NCBI GenBank assembly: GCA_946628415.1
Contig: CAMOWK010000005.1
Span: 1-64,000, forward strand
DNA length: 64,000 nucleotides
Source: an uncultured Lachnospiraceae bacterium
GTDB taxonomy: Bacteria > Bacillota > Clostridia > Lachnospirales > Lachnospiraceae
Direction: 5' to 3'
Shown piece by piece: positions 10,162-16,779 of this stretch. Below the pieces are notes generated by a model, which saw only the letters and a program-made list of their open reading frames with translations, searched no databases and was not told where the DNA came from. Made by a program: the position numbers and the translations under genes. The first letter of the stretch is position 1; the number at the start of each line of letters is the position of its first letter.

Positions 10162-10407
10162 TTAAGATTCGTCATAGACGTATTCGATAATATCTGCAGG
10201 GTTACAGCCCAATGCATAGCATATGCGGGCAAGCACATCGGCATCTATTTTTTCAACATGCCCTTTGTACCATTTATCGACTACTTCAAATCGGGTGTTG
10301 ATGGCACGGGCAAGGGCATTTCTAGTGATGTTGTTCTTATCCATATAGTCTTTAAGGTTTAGTCTAATGTAGCCATAGTTGTTAATTGAGATAACTTGAT
10401 TCTGCAT
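10162..10407 (-). CDS. Small Cro/C1-type regulator
   Basis: 81 residues on the minus strand. The HTH covers about 17-70 (LKDYMDKNNITRNALARAINTRFEVVDKWYKG) and ends with the LGCNPADIIEYV tail common in the small XRE/HTH_26 type. It is divergent from the SPFH/TIR operon with 209 bases between. Its position and the 18-base palindrome over the operon's -10 box suggest it represses that operon. Inference. Confidence 0.85.
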   Translation of the reverse strand: MQNQVISINNYGYIRLNLKDYMDKNNITRNALARAINTRFEVVDKWYKGHVEKIDADVLARICYALGCNPADIIEYVYDES

Positions 10408-10527
10408 AGCATACCTTCCTATATTCTTTTGATACTAACAAAGGGGTTTTAAGAATTTAATGTCAAAATGTCGTAAATTACATCTAATAATTACCATACA
10501 GAACCATACTATGTGAAAAGTAAATGA

Positions 10528-10567
10528 TTGACTAATCCCTTGTAGAAAGTTACTATATAGATAGTAA
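10528..10567 (+). promoter_or_regulatory. Promoter and palindromic operator of the SPFH/TIR operon
   Basis: TTGACT (10528-10533) and TACTAT (10551-10556) are 17 bases apart. The inverted repeat TTACTAT-atag-ATAGTAA (10550-10567) covers the -10 box and the start region, a typical repressor site. The rest of the 10408-10616 gap shows no gene. Confidence 0.65.
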
Positions 10568-10616: not shown

Positions 10617-12059
10617 ATGGCAAAGCAAGAAAAAAGAGAGGGAATAATAAGTGTTATAAAGTATGAAGGTCCAAATAGCGTTTTTGCTTGGAAACATCCT
10701 ATAGAGGATTTTAGTTCCGGTTCGCAACTAATTGTGCATGAATCTCAAGAGGCAATTTTCTTTAAAAATGGTAAAGCGCTGGATCTGTTTGGTTCAGGAA
10801 GATATACATTAGAAACAGAAAATATTCCGCTTCTAAGAGATACATTTAGCGTGCCATCAAATGCGGATACTCTGTTCCATGCTGAGGTATATTTTGTAAA
10901 TCTCACAACTCAGATGGGTATTAAGTGGGGGACTGATTCAAAAGTAAGGCTTTTTGATCCTGCATCGGGTCTTCATATAGAAATCGGTGCATGTGGAAGT
11001 TTTAATCTAAGAGTTACTAATTCGAGGAAATTCCTTGTTAAGATTGTTGGCACTGAAGGTGGATTCGGGCAGGGTCAAGTGCTGAATGGTGACGGTTCAG
11101 GTTTTACAACGGGTAAATTCAAGTCACTTATCATGAATCGTGTAAAGGCAAATCTTGCCAGAATTATTAAGGAGCAGAATATAAATATCCTTGAAGTTGA
11201 CGAGCATTTAGACAGCTTATCTGAAGCAATGAGGATTTCAATAAATGAAACGCTGGATGACTATGGAATGGTCATGCCTGAATTCTTTATTACTTCAATA
11301 ATGACACCGGATGATGATCCGAATTTCCGTAGATTGAAACAGCAATTTGCAGATAAGACATTAAAAGTAAGAGAGGAAGAGGTAAGAAAGGCAGAGGCAG
11401 AAGCCGCTCAAAGAAGAAAGGTAGTCGAGGCTGAAACAGAGGCACAGCTTAAGATGGTTGGTGCTAAAGGAGAGGCTGAGGCGACCAAGATAAAAGCAGA
11501 GGCAGAGGCAGAAGCATATAAGATGAAAGCTTTCGCAGAGGCAGCTGAAATGAAGGCAAAGGGTTATACCTACCAGCAGGAAACCGCAAGACAGGTTGGT
11601 ATGGAAGCTATGCAGAACGGAATAACAGGTGGTGAATCCGGTGGGAGCGGAATAGGAGATATAGCAGGGCTTGGTGTAACTCTTGGAGCAATGGGTGGAG
11701 TTATGAATATGACTAGAGAAGCTATGAATCCTATTATGGATAGTTCCACTCAGGTTGGAACCGGTTTTGGAAATGTAATTAGCGACTCGGCAAAGGATAC
11801 ATGGGATTGTCCTAATTGTGGCGCCAAAGGAATTACAAGTAAGTTCTGTCCGGATTGTGGCTCTCCAAAGCCTATGATGAATCGAGTTGGAGTTTGGGAT
11901 TGCTCGAATTGCGGTACTAAAGGAATAACAAGTAAGTTTTGTCCTGATTGTGGAAGTCCTATGCCAAAGGCTGATGAGGGATGGACTTGTCCAAATTGTG
12001 GAACCACTGGAATTAAGAGTAAATTCTGTCCTGACTGTGGACAAAAGAAAGATGAATAA
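10617..12059 (+). CDS. SPFH-domain protein with three C-terminal zinc ribbons (YdjI-like)
   Basis: 480 residues after AAAAAAGGAGAAGGAG. The N-terminal ~240 residues form an SPFH/band-7-like domain of the 'virion core protein' type seen in B. subtilis YdjI. A charged helical stretch rich in Ala/Glu/Lys (about 255-330) is probably coiled coil. After a Gly-rich linker, three near-identical zinc ribbons (about 393-480) repeat WxCxNCGxxGIxSKFCPDCG, four Cys each. There is no membrane helix of its own. Known for the family: SPFH proteins form rings or scaffolds at membranes, and YdjI helps bring PspA to the membrane. First gene of a four-gene operon; next gene 11 bases on. Confidence 0.85.
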   Translation: MAKQEKREGIISVIKYEGPNSVFAWKHPIEDFSSGSQLIVHESQEAIFFKNGKALDLFGSGRYTLETENIPLLRDTFSVPSNADTLFHAEVYFVNLTTQMGIKWGTDSKVRLFDPASGLHIEIGACGSFNLRVTNSRKFLVKIVGTEGGFGQGQVLNGDGSGFTTGKFKSLIMNRVKANLARIIKEQNINILEVDEHLDSLSEAMRISINETLDDYGMVMPEFFITSIMTPDDDPNFRRLKQQFADKTLKVREEEVRKAEAEAAQRRKVVEAETEAQLKMVGAKGEAEATKIKAEAEAEAYKMKAFAEAAEMKAKGYTYQQETARQVGMEAMQNGITGGESGGSGIGDIAGLGVTLGAMGGVMNMTREAMNPIMDSSTQVGTGFGNVISDSAKDTWDCPNCGAKGITSKFCPDCGSPKPMMNRVGVWDCSNCGTKGITSKFCPDCGSPMPKADEGWTCPNCGTTGIKSKFCPDCGQKKDE

Positions 12060-12070
12060 AGGAGACTGCT

Positions 12071-12766
12071 ATGAATACAAAGAGTAAAAATACATCAATA
12101 ATAATATACGCAGTAATAGCAGTACTATATTTAGTCTGCTTTTTTGCAATTCCATTTGAAAAGAATGCTATTACATGGACAGCCTTCGCCTTTGGATTTG
12201 TTTCGATAATCGGAGGAGCGATAGCTGCATTCGTTTCATTTGAAAATGGACAGGAATTGAAATCAAAGATTTACGGCTTCCCTATATTTAGATTGGGTTA
12301 CTACTATACGATAGTTCAATTGATATTAACAGTAATCTTCTGCACGGCCGGTTCATTTATAGAACTCCCGGTGTGGATAGTTGTCGTATCCGGAGCAATA
12401 CTTCTTGGCGTGTTCATTATAGGAGTCATCTCAGTTGACAGAGTACGTGAGGTTGTTGAACGACAGGACATTAGTGATGCAATAAATACAAAAACAGTAG
12501 AAACCTTTAGGCTGGATATTGATTCGCTTGTTAGAAAAAGTCCAGATGCCAATGTTCAGCGAGCTATGGAAAAACTTGCAGAGGAGTTCAAGTATAGTGA
12601 TCCAATGTCAAGTGAGGCTACAAGAGGGATTGAAGAAGAGATTAAGGGCAAGATAGAGGAATTGGCTAGTGCTTTGGTTTCTGATCCTGGGAGGAGTATG
12701 GGGATTATAGACGAAGTTAGAGGATTGTTGGAGAACAGAAATAGGGTTTGTAGGAGTTCAAAGTGA
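12071..12766 (+). CDS. Four-helix membrane protein, unrecognised
   Basis: 231 residues. Start ATG follows AAAGGAGACTG, 11 bases after the SPFH gene. Four membrane helices are visible at about 9-28, 35-57, 75-98 and 100-121, followed by a soluble, charged, helical C-terminal part (122-231). No catalytic motif is seen. Sandwiched between an SPFH protein and a TIR protein, it is a plausible membrane anchor or channel for a complex of the two. Function not known. Confidence 0.8.
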   Translation: MNTKSKNTSIIIYAVIAVLYLVCFFAIPFEKNAITWTAFAFGFVSIIGGAIAAFVSFENGQELKSKIYGFPIFRLGYYYTIVQLILTVIFCTAGSFIELPVWIVVVSGAILLGVFIIGVISVDRVREVVERQDISDAINTKTVETFRLDIDSLVRKSPDANVQRAMEKLAEEFKYSDPMSSEATRGIEEEIKGKIEELASALVSDPGRSMGIIDEVRGLLENRNRVCRSSK

Positions 12767-12818
12767 TTTGATGGTTTTGCAAATGGTTGATGCTGAAACA
12801 AACAAGGATTGATAAAAA

Positions 12819-13277
12819 ATGACTATTAGTACAATAAAAGATATCTCAGAGATACTCATGGCAATTACTTCTATTATTTGTGGTTTGTTTGCCATCTACA
12901 CTTATTATAAGGATCGAAAAAGAAACAAGAAAAAGGATACTTTGGATGCATATAATGATTTACAGAATAAATCATTAAATATGATTAATAAGTGGAAGCC
13001 TTCAGAGATTAAAGAAGTAATTCATAATAAGCAATCGAATGAGTTTAAAGAGTTAAGTGGGTATTTGGCAGATATTGAAAGGTTTTGTGTAGGATTGAAT
13101 GTAGGAATATATGACTTAGAAACTTTCTATGAAATTGCTCATGGTTACTTTGAAAGTGATAGGGGGCTATTACCTCCTAGGATTCTACCTTTAATTGAAG
13201 AAAAGAATAAAAATTCGGATGGTGAATACTATAATAACATTCAACTAGTAATGAATAGAATGAAAAGCATGAATTGA
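12819..13277 (+). CDS. Small single-pass membrane protein, DUF4760-like
   Basis: 152 residues. One N-terminal helix (about 8-28) is followed by a basic RKRNKKK stretch, placing the rest in the cytoplasm. The C-terminal domain has evenly spaced aromatic and acidic residues and resembles the helical DUF4760-type proteins that often accompany accessory genes. The ribosome site is weak (AAGG 14 bases upstream). It is the third gene of the operon, with 41 bases before the TIR gene. Function unknown. Confidence 0.7.
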   Translation: MTISTIKDISEILMAITSIICGLFAIYTYYKDRKRNKKKDTLDAYNDLQNKSLNMINKWKPSEIKEVIHNKQSNEFKELSGYLADIERFCVGLNVGIYDLETFYEIAHGYFESDRGLLPPRILPLIEEKNKNSDGEYYNNIQLVMNRMKSMN

Positions 13278-13318
13278 AAGAATGAAACGAACACTAAAAT
13301 AAAGGAAGGGTATACGAT

Positions 13319-16105
13319 ATGTCAGTAATTAAGTGCAAAATGTGTGGAGGTAGCCTTTCATATGAAGTGGGTTCGTCGGTATGTGAATGTGAATACTGCG
13401 GAACAAAGCAGACTATTCCAGATACTGATGATGAAAAGAGACTCAAGTTATACGAAAGAGCCAATAAACTCAGAATCAATAATGAGTTTGATAAGGCTGC
13501 AGGGGTATACGAGTCTATAGTTGCAGAATTTCAGTCTGAAGCTGAAGCTTACTGGGGACTGGTACTCTGTAAGTATGGAATAGAGTATGTAGATGATCCT
13601 ATGACAGGTAAGAAGATTCCGACCTGTCATAGGTCTTCTTTTGATTCTATTTTTGATGATTCTAACTTTGATTTTGTAATGGAAAATGCCGATACAGTAG
13701 CTAGAGGTATTTATAGAGAAGAAGCTAAACAGATTGAAGAGATAAGAAAAGGAATAATAGAAGTATCGTCTAAAGAAGAACCGTATGACATTTTTATTTG
13801 CTATAAAGAAACAGCAGAAGATGGAGAAAGGACAATCGATAGCGTTATAGCTCAGGATGTATATGAGGAATTAACAGAAAATGGTTACCGGGTCTTCTTC
13901 TCAAGAATAAGTCTTGAAGATAAGCTTGGCCAGGAGTATGAACCATACATTTTCGCTGCCTTAAATTCTGCTAAAGTAATGCTTGTATTTGGAACTCAGT
14001 ATGACTATCTCAATGCTGTTTGGGTAAAGAATGAGTGGAGTAGATTTCTTCAGTTAATGGAGTCCGGGCAGAAGAAAACACTCATTCCTTGCTACAAAAA
14101 TATAGATGCCTACGATATGCCAAAGGAGTTCGCAAAGCTCCAGGCTCAGGATATGGGTAAAGTGGGCGCAACTCAGGATTTAATCCGTGGGATTAATAAG
14201 ATTTTCGGAAAGACTTCTGGTAGTGTAAATAGTGCCATGGAATCATCGAAAGTCTCGTCAGTAACAACTCCGCTTGGATACAGTGAGGAGCCTATCCTTA
14301 AGAGAATCAGGATGTTCCTTGAGGATGAAGATTGGGATGCGGCTTCAACGTATTGTGAGCAAGTACTGAACCATAATCCTGAATGTGCATTAGCTTATGT
14401 ATATAAACTAATGATTGGGTTGAAGGTGACGGAACAAAATAAGTTAGGTAATTTGGATAAAACGTTTGAACATGAAAAGAATTACCAAAAAGCAATCAGG
14501 TTTGCTGATGAAAACCTAAAGGCTGAGTTAGAGGGTTATAACCGGGCAATTATCGAAAGAAAAAAAGAAAATGAGTATGAGTCTGCACTTAATATAATTA
14601 AATATGCAAAGACTCAGGATGACTATGTTGGGGCAAAAAAAGCATTTGAGTCATTAGGTGATTATAAAGATTCAAAGGAGTTGGCAGCCGATGCTGATAA
14701 ACTATACCATGATTTTGGTATGAATTCTATTTATGATGGAGCAATTGGACTGTCCAAAAGTGATTCTATCAATGATCTTGAAAAAGCACTTAAAGAGTTT
14801 GATACTATACTTGGTTGGAAGGATGCCGATGAAAGGAAAGAAGCTTTAAATGTAAAGCTTCATGAAATGAAATATGAATCAGCAATAGCTTTTATGAATG
14901 AGGCTAATGAACTATTAGAACAAATTAAATCAGGGAAGTATACTGATGCTTATACAGAGCTAACGAATTATGATAAGTGTATAGAAAAATTCACTCAAAG
15001 TGCTAAGAAATTTGAAGCGTTGCGTGAGTATATGGATTCTGAAGAAAAGTTAACACAATGTGATGAAATTGCAAATCAGCTTAAAGATGAATATAAGAAA
15101 AAAAGAGATATATATGAAAAACATAAAAAACGAACTGTCATAAAATGTTTAGTGGCATGCGGAGTTATTGTAATACTCGTGTTACTTTATATTATACTGG
15201 TGCAACCTTATTTAAAAAATGAGGGCGCTTATAAAAATGCTAAGAAACTATTAGAGAATGGCTCTTATGTTGAGGCGGATATTGAGTTTAGCAAAATAGA
15301 GAATTATAAAGATTCTAAGGATTTGTCAAAGGAGGCAATGTATAGATTAGCATCGAAGTATTATGAAGAAGGGGAGTACAAAGATGCAATAAATGTTTGG
15401 GATGAAATTGGAGATTATAAGGATTCAAAGACCAGGGTGACTGATTACTTTGAAAAAGAATATAGTGATGCGACAGATGCTCTTTCAAAAAAAGAGTATG
15501 CAAAGGCGTGTGAGATATTTAAAAAAATATCCGGTTATAAAGATGCGGACGATAGGTATTTAGAGAGTTCCTATGAATATGCATGTAAGTTGCTGGAAGG
15601 TAAAGAGTATCAAAGTGCAATTGTTTGGTATCAGAAATGTATTAATTACAATGATTCAAAAGAGAGAATCCTTGAGGCTGAGTATGATTATGTATTAGAA
15701 AATAAGGATTTAAGTGACCAAACACACACATATCTTAAGGAACTTGTAAAAGAAAAATACCCAGGGTCTCAGAAACTATTTGATGAATTATATACATGGA
15801 AGGTGGATGTACTCATTAATAAAGGGGCGTCTACGGTATACTATGCCGATAGAACAAATTTGGAATATACTGTCGTAGGGGGAGAACCCGGAGTAACTAA
15901 AAAAATACGAGAAGTTATTACATATCCAAATGGGGAGGTCGAAAAAGGAGAATGGCAAAGTGTTCATCAAGGCGATACTCTTAGTAGCTATTGGGCTGAT
16001 GGCGTGATGCAAGGCCCAGAGTTTATAGGTTCAACTCTTAAGGTAGAGATAGTTGATGAATCAAACAAAGTACTTGGAGAGGCAAGTATTAAAGTCTTAA
16101 ATTAA
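13319..16105 (+). CDS. Zinc ribbon-TIR-transmembrane protein with YKDS repeats
   Basis: 928 residues. Zinc ribbon at 6-29 (CxxC ... CxYC); helical segment 38-150; TIR domain about 154-280, starting YDIFICYKE and including FFSRISLEDKLG and WVKNEW. E239 of WVKNEW aligns by motif with the catalytic Glu of SARM1 (WVHKEI), so NAD+ cleavage is plausible. Helical repeats follow, one membrane helix at 606-631, then more repeats carrying Y/WKDSK or KDAD signatures (six seen across 449-781), and a C-terminal beta-rich domain (about 825-928). Related zinc ribbon-TIR proteins are common in Clostridia, but I know of no assigned function. Last gene of the SPFH operon; no terminator is clear downstream. Confidence 0.85.
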   Translation: MSVIKCKMCGGSLSYEVGSSVCECEYCGTKQTIPDTDDEKRLKLYERANKLRINNEFDKAAGVYESIVAEFQSEAEAYWGLVLCKYGIEYVDDPMTGKKIPTCHRSSFDSIFDDSNFDFVMENADTVARGIYREEAKQIEEIRKGIIEVSSKEEPYDIFICYKETAEDGERTIDSVIAQDVYEELTENGYRVFFSRISLEDKLGQEYEPYIFAALNSAKVMLVFGTQYDYLNAVWVKNEWSRFLQLMESGQKKTLIPCYKNIDAYDMPKEFAKLQAQDMGKVGATQDLIRGINKIFGKTSGSVNSAMESSKVSSVTTPLGYSEEPILKRIRMFLEDEDWDAASTYCEQVLNHNPECALAYVYKLMIGLKVTEQNKLGNLDKTFEHEKNYQKAIRFADENLKAELEGYNRAIIERKKENEYESALNIIKYAKTQDDYVGAKKAFESLGDYKDSKELAADADKLYHDFGMNSIYDGAIGLSKSDSINDLEKALKEFDTILGWKDADERKEALNVKLHEMKYESAIAFMNEANELLEQIKSGKYTDAYTELTNYDKCIEKFTQSAKKFEALREYMDSEEKLTQCDEIANQLKDEYKKKRDIYEKHKKRTVIKCLVACGVIVILVLLYIILVQPYLKNEGAYKNAKKLLENGSYVEADIEFSKIENYKDSKDLSKEAMYRLASKYYEEGEYKDAINVWDEIGDYKDSKTRVTDYFEKEYSDATDALSKKEYAKACEIFKKISGYKDADDRYLESSYEYACKLLEGKEYQSAIVWYQKCINYNDSKERILEAEYDYVLENKDLSDQTHTYLKELVKEKYPGSQKLFDELYTWKVDVLINKGASTVYYADRTNLEYTVVGGEPGVTKKIREVITYPNGEVEKGEWQSVHQGDTLSSYWADGVMQGPEFIGSTLKVEIVDESNKVLGEASIKVLN

Positions 16106-16231: not shown

Positions 16232-16312
16232 TAAATTGAGGTATATCCTACTTATTTCCGTTAATGGAGCAGAATGCTTCAGCGGTACATTTTAAATAAG
16301 GAGGATATGCAT

Positions 16313-16779
16313 ATGGGAGAAAAAGTAGTAGAAAAACCAAGGGAGAACAGAGAGTATAGGGACAGCGTGTTTGTTGATCTGTTCCAAACAAGTGAGTTTG
16401 CGCAGGAGTATGCGAAGGAATTATCCAGATGGCTTATGAATCTGGGGGATGATTGGGACGGAAAAATAAAAGCTCCGGTATATCAGAGCCGTTTAAAAGG
16501 GCGGTCAACGATTGCATACAGTCCAATATCCTAAAGGATTATCTCAAGTCAAGAGGCGCGGAGGTATTTAATATGTTATTTGCGGAATATGATTATAATG
16601 AAGATATAGCCGTTAAGCAGGCTGAGGCTTATGAGGAAGGCGTTGCTAATGGTTTAGAAGAGGGAATAGAAACATCTATCCGAAGGTTAATGAATAATAT
16701 GAATATTTCTCAGGATAAGGCAATGGATTATCTTGGGATTCCTGAAGAAGACAGGGATAAATATATGGAAAAGGTATAG
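16313..16779 (+). pseudogene. Remnant of an Rpn/PD-(D/E)XK transposase-like nuclease gene
   Basis: An excellent AAGGAGG (16298-16304) and ATG at 16313 open a frame whose first ~45 residues (ENREYRDSVFVDLF...) match the N-terminus of Rpn-family recombination-promoting nucleases. The reading then runs out of register. A second frame from about 16480 to 16779 encodes the family's C-terminal tail (KRAVNDCIQSNILKDYL, then AEAYEEGVANGLEEG and a helical end). The central PD-(D/E)XK catalytic part, roughly 150-200 residues, is missing, so this is an internal deletion with a frameshift. Confidence 0.8.

Follow-up and report, generated by a model that had tools for sequence, protein, structure and literature searches.

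A recurrent SPFH, four-transmembrane and TIR gene module of gut Clostridia, a candidate membrane-scaffolded immune system

The DNA analysed here, called the window throughout, is a stretch of 64,000 nucleotides (nt) from contig CAMOWK010000005.1 of an uncultured Lachnospiraceae bacterium (assembly GCA_946628415.1). It carries an operon encoding an SPFH protein, a small protein with four transmembrane (TM) segments (4-TM), a second small membrane protein and a protein combining a zinc ribbon (ZnR) with a TIR domain, designated ZTIR. Three of these genes, SPFH, 4-TM and ZTIR, form a module of gut Clostridia that is real, conserved and had previously been neither named nor described. The features of the locus are the following:

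10162-10407, - strand: divergent XRE/HTH_26 regulator, 81 amino acids (aa); HTH_26 match, E 5.5e-17
10500-10567, + strand: promoter/operator region, with two related sites at 10500-10523 and 10544-10567
10617-12059, + strand: gene 1, SPFH, 480 aa, proposed scaffold; Pfam matches to PF13421 Band_7_1 (E 6e-38) and three C-terminal zinc ribbons
12071-12766, + strand: gene 2 (G2), 4-TM protein, 231 aa; from hydropathy and a hidden Markov model built in this analysis
12819-13277, + strand: gene 3, cargo, 152 aa; PF15956 DUF4760, E 3e-7; one N-terminal TM segment
13319-16105, + strand: gene 4, ZTIR, 928 aa; Pfam match to PF13676 TIR_2, E 2e-11
13334-13402, + strand: N-terminal zinc ribbon of ZTIR (C6/C9/C24/C27), all four cysteines invariant in 30/30 aligned homologues
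13781-14209, + strand: TIR domain of ZTIR, aa 155-297, with W235-V-K-N-E239; E239 codon at 14033-14035
15137-15202, + strand: predicted TM helix of ZTIR, aa 607-628; the residues flanking it on the N-terminal side are strongly positive

A first-pass annotation of the sequence had described four same-strand genes with zinc ribbons at both ends, a TIR domain bearing the WxxxE glutamate, and an operator-like promoter and a divergent XRE regulator. All of these were recovered. The four open reading frames (ORFs) lie on the + strand at the coordinates first given, separated by gaps of 11-52 nt, with the three ribbons of SPFH at its C-terminus, a CxxC..CxxC ribbon at the N-terminus of ZTIR, and W235 and E239 in place. 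The 4-TM protein matched no Pfam family. Upstream of gene 1, a -35 box TTGACT (10528-10533) and a -10 box TACTAT (10551-10556) are separated by a 17-nt spacer; the -10 box sits within the palindrome TTACTAT-ATAG-ATAGTAA, of which a degenerate second copy lies 44 nt upstream. By itself, a consensus promoter scan performed at chance level (21 found versus 21.4 expected). We take the operator as real not from that scan but because the same arrangement of boxes, spacer, palindrome and degenerate second copy recurs 5' of the SPFH genes in two sister loci, L132 and L134. In L132 an XRE homologue with 72% identity to that of the window occupies the equivalent position. The XRE protein would repress the operon at this operator, which overlaps the -10 box.

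The layout of ZTIR was deduced from its sequence and from AlphaFold2 models: a zinc ribbon, TPR-like helices, the TIR domain, a TPR arm, a TM helix, C-terminal TPR repeats and a beta-rich end. The predicted local distance difference test (pLDDT) score was 90.9 for the TIR, modelled with 30 homologues, and 80.2 for a second model. In structural comparisons (VIA-align), the best matches of the TIR were to the enzymatic TIRs of SPARTA (Z up to 17.6), AbTir (Z 15.6) and SARM1 (Z 15.4), over 122-141 residues. The W-x-x-x-E motif (WxKNE) is retained in 147/149 full-length ZTIR homologues, the two exceptions being divergent proteins (L053:9490-10404 and L054:10447-11352) from loci devoid of SPFH, and profile alignments superimpose it on the W..E of the plant L6 TIR and of Toll-like receptors. 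In plant TIRs, SARM1 and AbTir, catalysis depends on the glutamate at this position. By fold and conserved glutamate the domain is thus predicted to be of NADase type and to cleave NAD+. A search of PDB sequences with full-length ZTIR gave no match, its profile matches were mostly to TPR, and a fold search with the C-terminal arm retrieved generic TPR matches only, pointing to no specific sensor family.

The distribution of these genes was examined at the level of the order in 295 genomes, using the N-terminal 320 residues of the gene 4 product as the ZTIR query. ZTIR was matched in 28 genomes, often in several copies each. Some SPFH was found in 93 genomes, and an SPFH close to that of the window (match of at least 200 bits) in 27. 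The two are strongly associated: 23/25 genomes with a strong ZTIR match contain the close SPFH, against 4/270 others (Fisher p 5e-28), and at the genus level the proportions are 18/20 against 2/110 (p 7e-18). These p values are inflated by kinship among the genomes; support independent of kinship comes from the shuffling of gene order. TIR genes lie ahead of SPFH, behind 4-TM or on both sides, with up to four ZTIR genes in tandem around the pair, and SPFH and 4-TM stay together, being adjacent in nearly all loci containing both. In an independent collection of 77 loci, SPFH, 4-TM and TIR were found together in 38, SPFH and TIR in 6, and 4-TM and TIR in 2, so that a TIR is accompanied by SPFH or 4-TM in 46 loci; many of the remaining ones are cut by contig ends. 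One genome collection yielded at least 574 stretches matching ZTIR, and ZTIR was not detected outside the window's own family among 398 genomes sampled across the phylum.

The TIR-linked SPFH proteins all fall in a single clade of 70 sequences (support 100/99). This clade also includes 13 sequences for which no TIR is present in the stretch fetched, most of them from genomes with a ZTIR elsewhere. Across relatives the SPFH tail bears one to six zinc ribbons; in L115:2720-3871 and in the second ORF of L183 it ends instead in a SHOCT-like stretch. Distant SPFH/4-TM pairs adjoin small proteins made of a zinc ribbon and a TM segment (L104-L108, L110, L117 and L118), and in three close pairs ZTIR is replaced by a protein with a zinc ribbon and five TM segments (L093:6936-7715, L099:9345-10130 and L101:206-1045). 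The pair therefore appears to accept varied ribbon-bearing partners, which suggests that ZTIR may dock on the scaffold through zinc ribbons.

Gene 3 does not belong to the conserved unit. The first-pass annotation had treated the four genes as one system and expected the four families to co-occur; this holds for SPFH, 4-TM and ZTIR, and a BLAST homologue of gene 3 adjoins ZTIR in no more than two further loci (L134 and L199). Gene 3 is exchangeable cargo, and the four-gene unit was rejected. Between 4-TM and TIR, sister loci carry FRG (2), UG26 reverse transcriptase (2), RES, SIR2 (SIR2_2), HEPN (2), DUF2971, DUF4760 (matched by Pfam in 4/37 cargo proteins) and ribbon-headed proteins (5). The last all begin with a common ribbon (for example KxxxCEMCGSxDLxKxDGVFVCQxCGTKYS), beyond which their tails are unrelated; they are encoded at L132:7740-8957, L135:5298-6347, L139:8394-9980 (with an RCC1-like propeller), L205:2394-3878 and L133:4958-6202. 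The two UG26 genes lie inside ZTIR operons between the TIR and SPFH genes (L034:8785-10029, - strand, and L043:5786-6991, + strand), with PADLOC scores of 463 and 527 bits. A strong ZTIR is present in 4/16 UG26 genomes (p 0.04) and the SPFH clade in 6/16 (p 0.001); no UG26 reverse transcriptase was detected in the window genome.

Tandem ZTIR copies revealed which part of the protein varies. Within such pairs the first 300 aa or so, comprising zinc ribbon and TIR, are up to 98% identical and the remainder about 19-45%, and in 9/12 pairs identity breaks at aa 290-303, where the TIR ends. The same pattern holds at four-fold degenerate sites: among the copies of L050 these are 96%/92% identical before the break and 59%/40%/38% after it, and downstream of the break they are saturated in tandem ZTIRs. 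Protein-level selection alone cannot yield this pattern; the N-terminal halves must be linked by recent common descent at the DNA level or by gene conversion, unlike the C-terminal halves. ZTIR would thus combine a homogenised effector with a divergent sensor, a pattern that bacterial immune receptors would be expected to show as a group. Sensing was initially attributed to SPFH and the small membrane proteins. We regard the variable C-terminus of ZTIR as the likelier site, since this is where tandem copies diverge. A further copy, at L044:10455-12569, is broken by a TAG stop between two frames and is likely a pseudogene beside an intact one.

The topology of the variable part differs among homologues: 48/149 full-length ZTIRs have a single TM helix with a downstream part, and 80/149 have no TM helix. 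Charge flanking supports an N-in, C-out orientation in 46/49 single-TM homologues.

With moderate confidence, we interpret these data as describing a chromosomal, regulated module of abortive immunity built on a membrane scaffold: SPFH and 4-TM would host ZTIR proteins acting as NADases, each triggered via its variable C-terminus. SPFH would oligomerise beneath the membrane, held there by its 4-TM partner, and one or more ZTIR proteins would dock on this platform, probably through their zinc ribbons. Each would consist of a constant effector (ZnR-helices-TIR) and of its own variable C-terminal arm, often membrane-crossing, serving as trigger. Upon binding or sensing of damage by the arm, the TIRs would cluster and cleave NAD+, and the cell would stop; such abortive immunity would most likely be directed against phage. 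The cargo (DUF4760 here; RES, FRG, SIR2, HEPN or UG26 reverse transcriptase elsewhere) would add further effectors. Our main reason for preferring immunity is that many of these cargo domain types have known counterparts in toxins and phage defence. We also raise, more tentatively, the possibility that one SPFH/4-TM platform per genome serves several TIR receptors. Gene conversion would keep their catalytic halves alike, and their sensor halves would be swapped or diversified; new specificities could then be gained with the effector unchanged. The immune operon first proposed thus survives in its recurrent SPFH/4-TM/TIR core, its NADase-type TIR and the defence-type cargo of sister loci, and loses support for its four-gene unit and for the inclusion of the neighbouring hipBA genes.

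Several observations weigh against an immune module of this kind. After the TIR, 74/136 untruncated ZTIRs have no predicted TM helix, so that membrane anchoring of ZTIR is not general. Cysteine content is no guide to the C-terminal part being outside, exported-like and cytosolic proteins being equal in this respect, and cysteine depletion was accordingly dropped as a proof. None of the models in PADLOC-DB 2.0.0 (2023 library) matched SPFH, 4-TM or ZTIR significantly. Flanking control genes often match PADLOC models as well, and the tally of cargo against flanks does not discriminate as a test of island enrichment. Finally, the phage and plasmid collections searched gave no match to the module, and among viral contigs (IMG/VR) a ZTIR relative was found on just two (L210 and L211, 62% and 39% identity); a mobile phage or plasmid element was rejected on these grounds. 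NCBIfam did not recognise the core proteins either, and we found no paper uniting SPFH, TIR and zinc ribbon in one system (the 'Tir' of Ravi et al. refers to CesT/Tir chaperones, not to TIR domains).

The closest characterised SPFH is YdjI of B. subtilis (PMC8581546; PMC11237479), which links PspA to the membrane via YdjG/YdjH (PMC8581546; PMC11237479). The module could accordingly act in envelope stress or membrane repair, in the manner of YdjI and of phage shock protein (PSP) systems, the TIR being a non-enzymatic assembly domain or an NAD-linked regulator rather than an immune effector. PF13421, the family of its SPFH, has matches in B. subtilis as well, the home of YdjI. The pspA-ydjGHI operon likewise combines a PF13421 SPFH with C-terminal zinc ribbon(s), small membrane proteins as anchor and ribbons on the partner, and the zinc ribbon-5TM or small zinc ribbon-TM partners that replace ZTIR beside some pairs would fit such a role. 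We nonetheless consider it unlikely. The window module has neither PspA nor the TPM-domain YdjH, its partner is a zinc ribbon-TIR protein, and it has an XRE gene and an operator instead of sigma-W. No PspA was found among the annotated ORFs of the window locus, the PspA of this genome lying on other contigs, and PspA is absent from 18/25 ZTIR genomes (present in only 7/25); because of this absence the locus was rejected as a PSP operon. Moreover, the window genome has a PSP-type pair of its own, separate from the TIR-linked SPFH: on contig 1, a second SPFH (PF13421, 148 bits; G000:C1:182343-183487, or L062 9343-10490, - strand) adjoins a PspA-like ORF. The near-universal glutamate at the catalytic position, the divergence of tandem sensors and cargo such as RES, FRG, SIR2, HEPN and reverse transcriptase are also unlike housekeeping repair.

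It is distinctly improbable that the module is a growth-arrest element of toxin-antitoxin type, in which SPFH/4-TM restrains the TIR and the trigger is other than phage. Such an element would fit the XRE regulator, whose operator covers the -10 box, the nearby hipBA, and the RES and HEPN cargo of other loci. The hipBA genes of the initial description are real (HipA_C, E 4e-49), but their membership of the system is not supported: none were found beside sister modules, bar one weak hipB-like match. Typical antitoxins are far smaller and less conserved than SPFH and 4-TM, some ZTIRs lie at loci or on contigs apart from SPFH, and the tandem arrays with divergent C-termini point to recognition. 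Least probable of all, we judge, is a regulatory or developmental platform, for instance for surface or colonisation sensing, making messengers of the cyclic ADP-ribose (cADPR) type without cell arrest: the module is chromosomal, restricted to gut-type Clostridia and not found on phages or plasmids, TPR arms and a beta domain are typical of protein-protein sensing, and ADPR and cADPR variants are among the products of TIRs from gut bacteria (PMC9092222), but the kinds of cargo and the fast turnover of sensors are those of conflict, not of conserved development.

With the TIR-effector anti-phage systems SPARTA, SpbK, TIR-STING CBASS and Thoeris, the module shares the TIR fold, the WxxxE glutamate and an effector joined to a variable recognition part. 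It differs from them in lacking Argonaute, CD-NTase, STING and ThsA, recognition being assigned to the TPR/TM C-terminus; the SPFH/4-TM platform and the tandem arrays with homogenised TIR also set it apart from them. As regards Thoeris, no ThsA (SIR2/SLOG) partner of the kind that goes with the TIR cADPR synthase ThsB was found among the operon proteins, and the only match was a weak one to ThcB4 (18 bits against a cut-off of 220). UG26, a candidate defence-associated reverse transcriptase (DRT) in PADLOC, sits inside two ZTIR operons; it is optional cargo, not present in the window, and most UG26 genomes have no ZTIR. About one third of ZTIRs resemble animal Toll-like receptors in having a single TM helix between the TIR and a probably extracytoplasmic sensor part. 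The comparison is a functional analogy only, with no descent claimed: ZTIR has its TIR at the N-terminal side, a zinc ribbon and no leucine-rich repeats, and is probably enzymatic. If the immune reading is true, TIR immunity gains a class built on a membrane scaffold (SPFH), and SPFH proteins of the YdjI type become connected with immune signalling. A large and so far unassigned family of TIR proteins from gut Clostridia would also acquire a concrete role, and paired receptors that differ in their sensors but not in their effectors would be available in nature for ligand mapping.

Downstream of the operon, the first-pass annotation had reported a broken Rpn-type nuclease. The Rpn assignment received no Pfam support at the threshold used; the broken pair itself is present at 16274-16779, as two overlapping ORFs resembling the remnants of a single gene.

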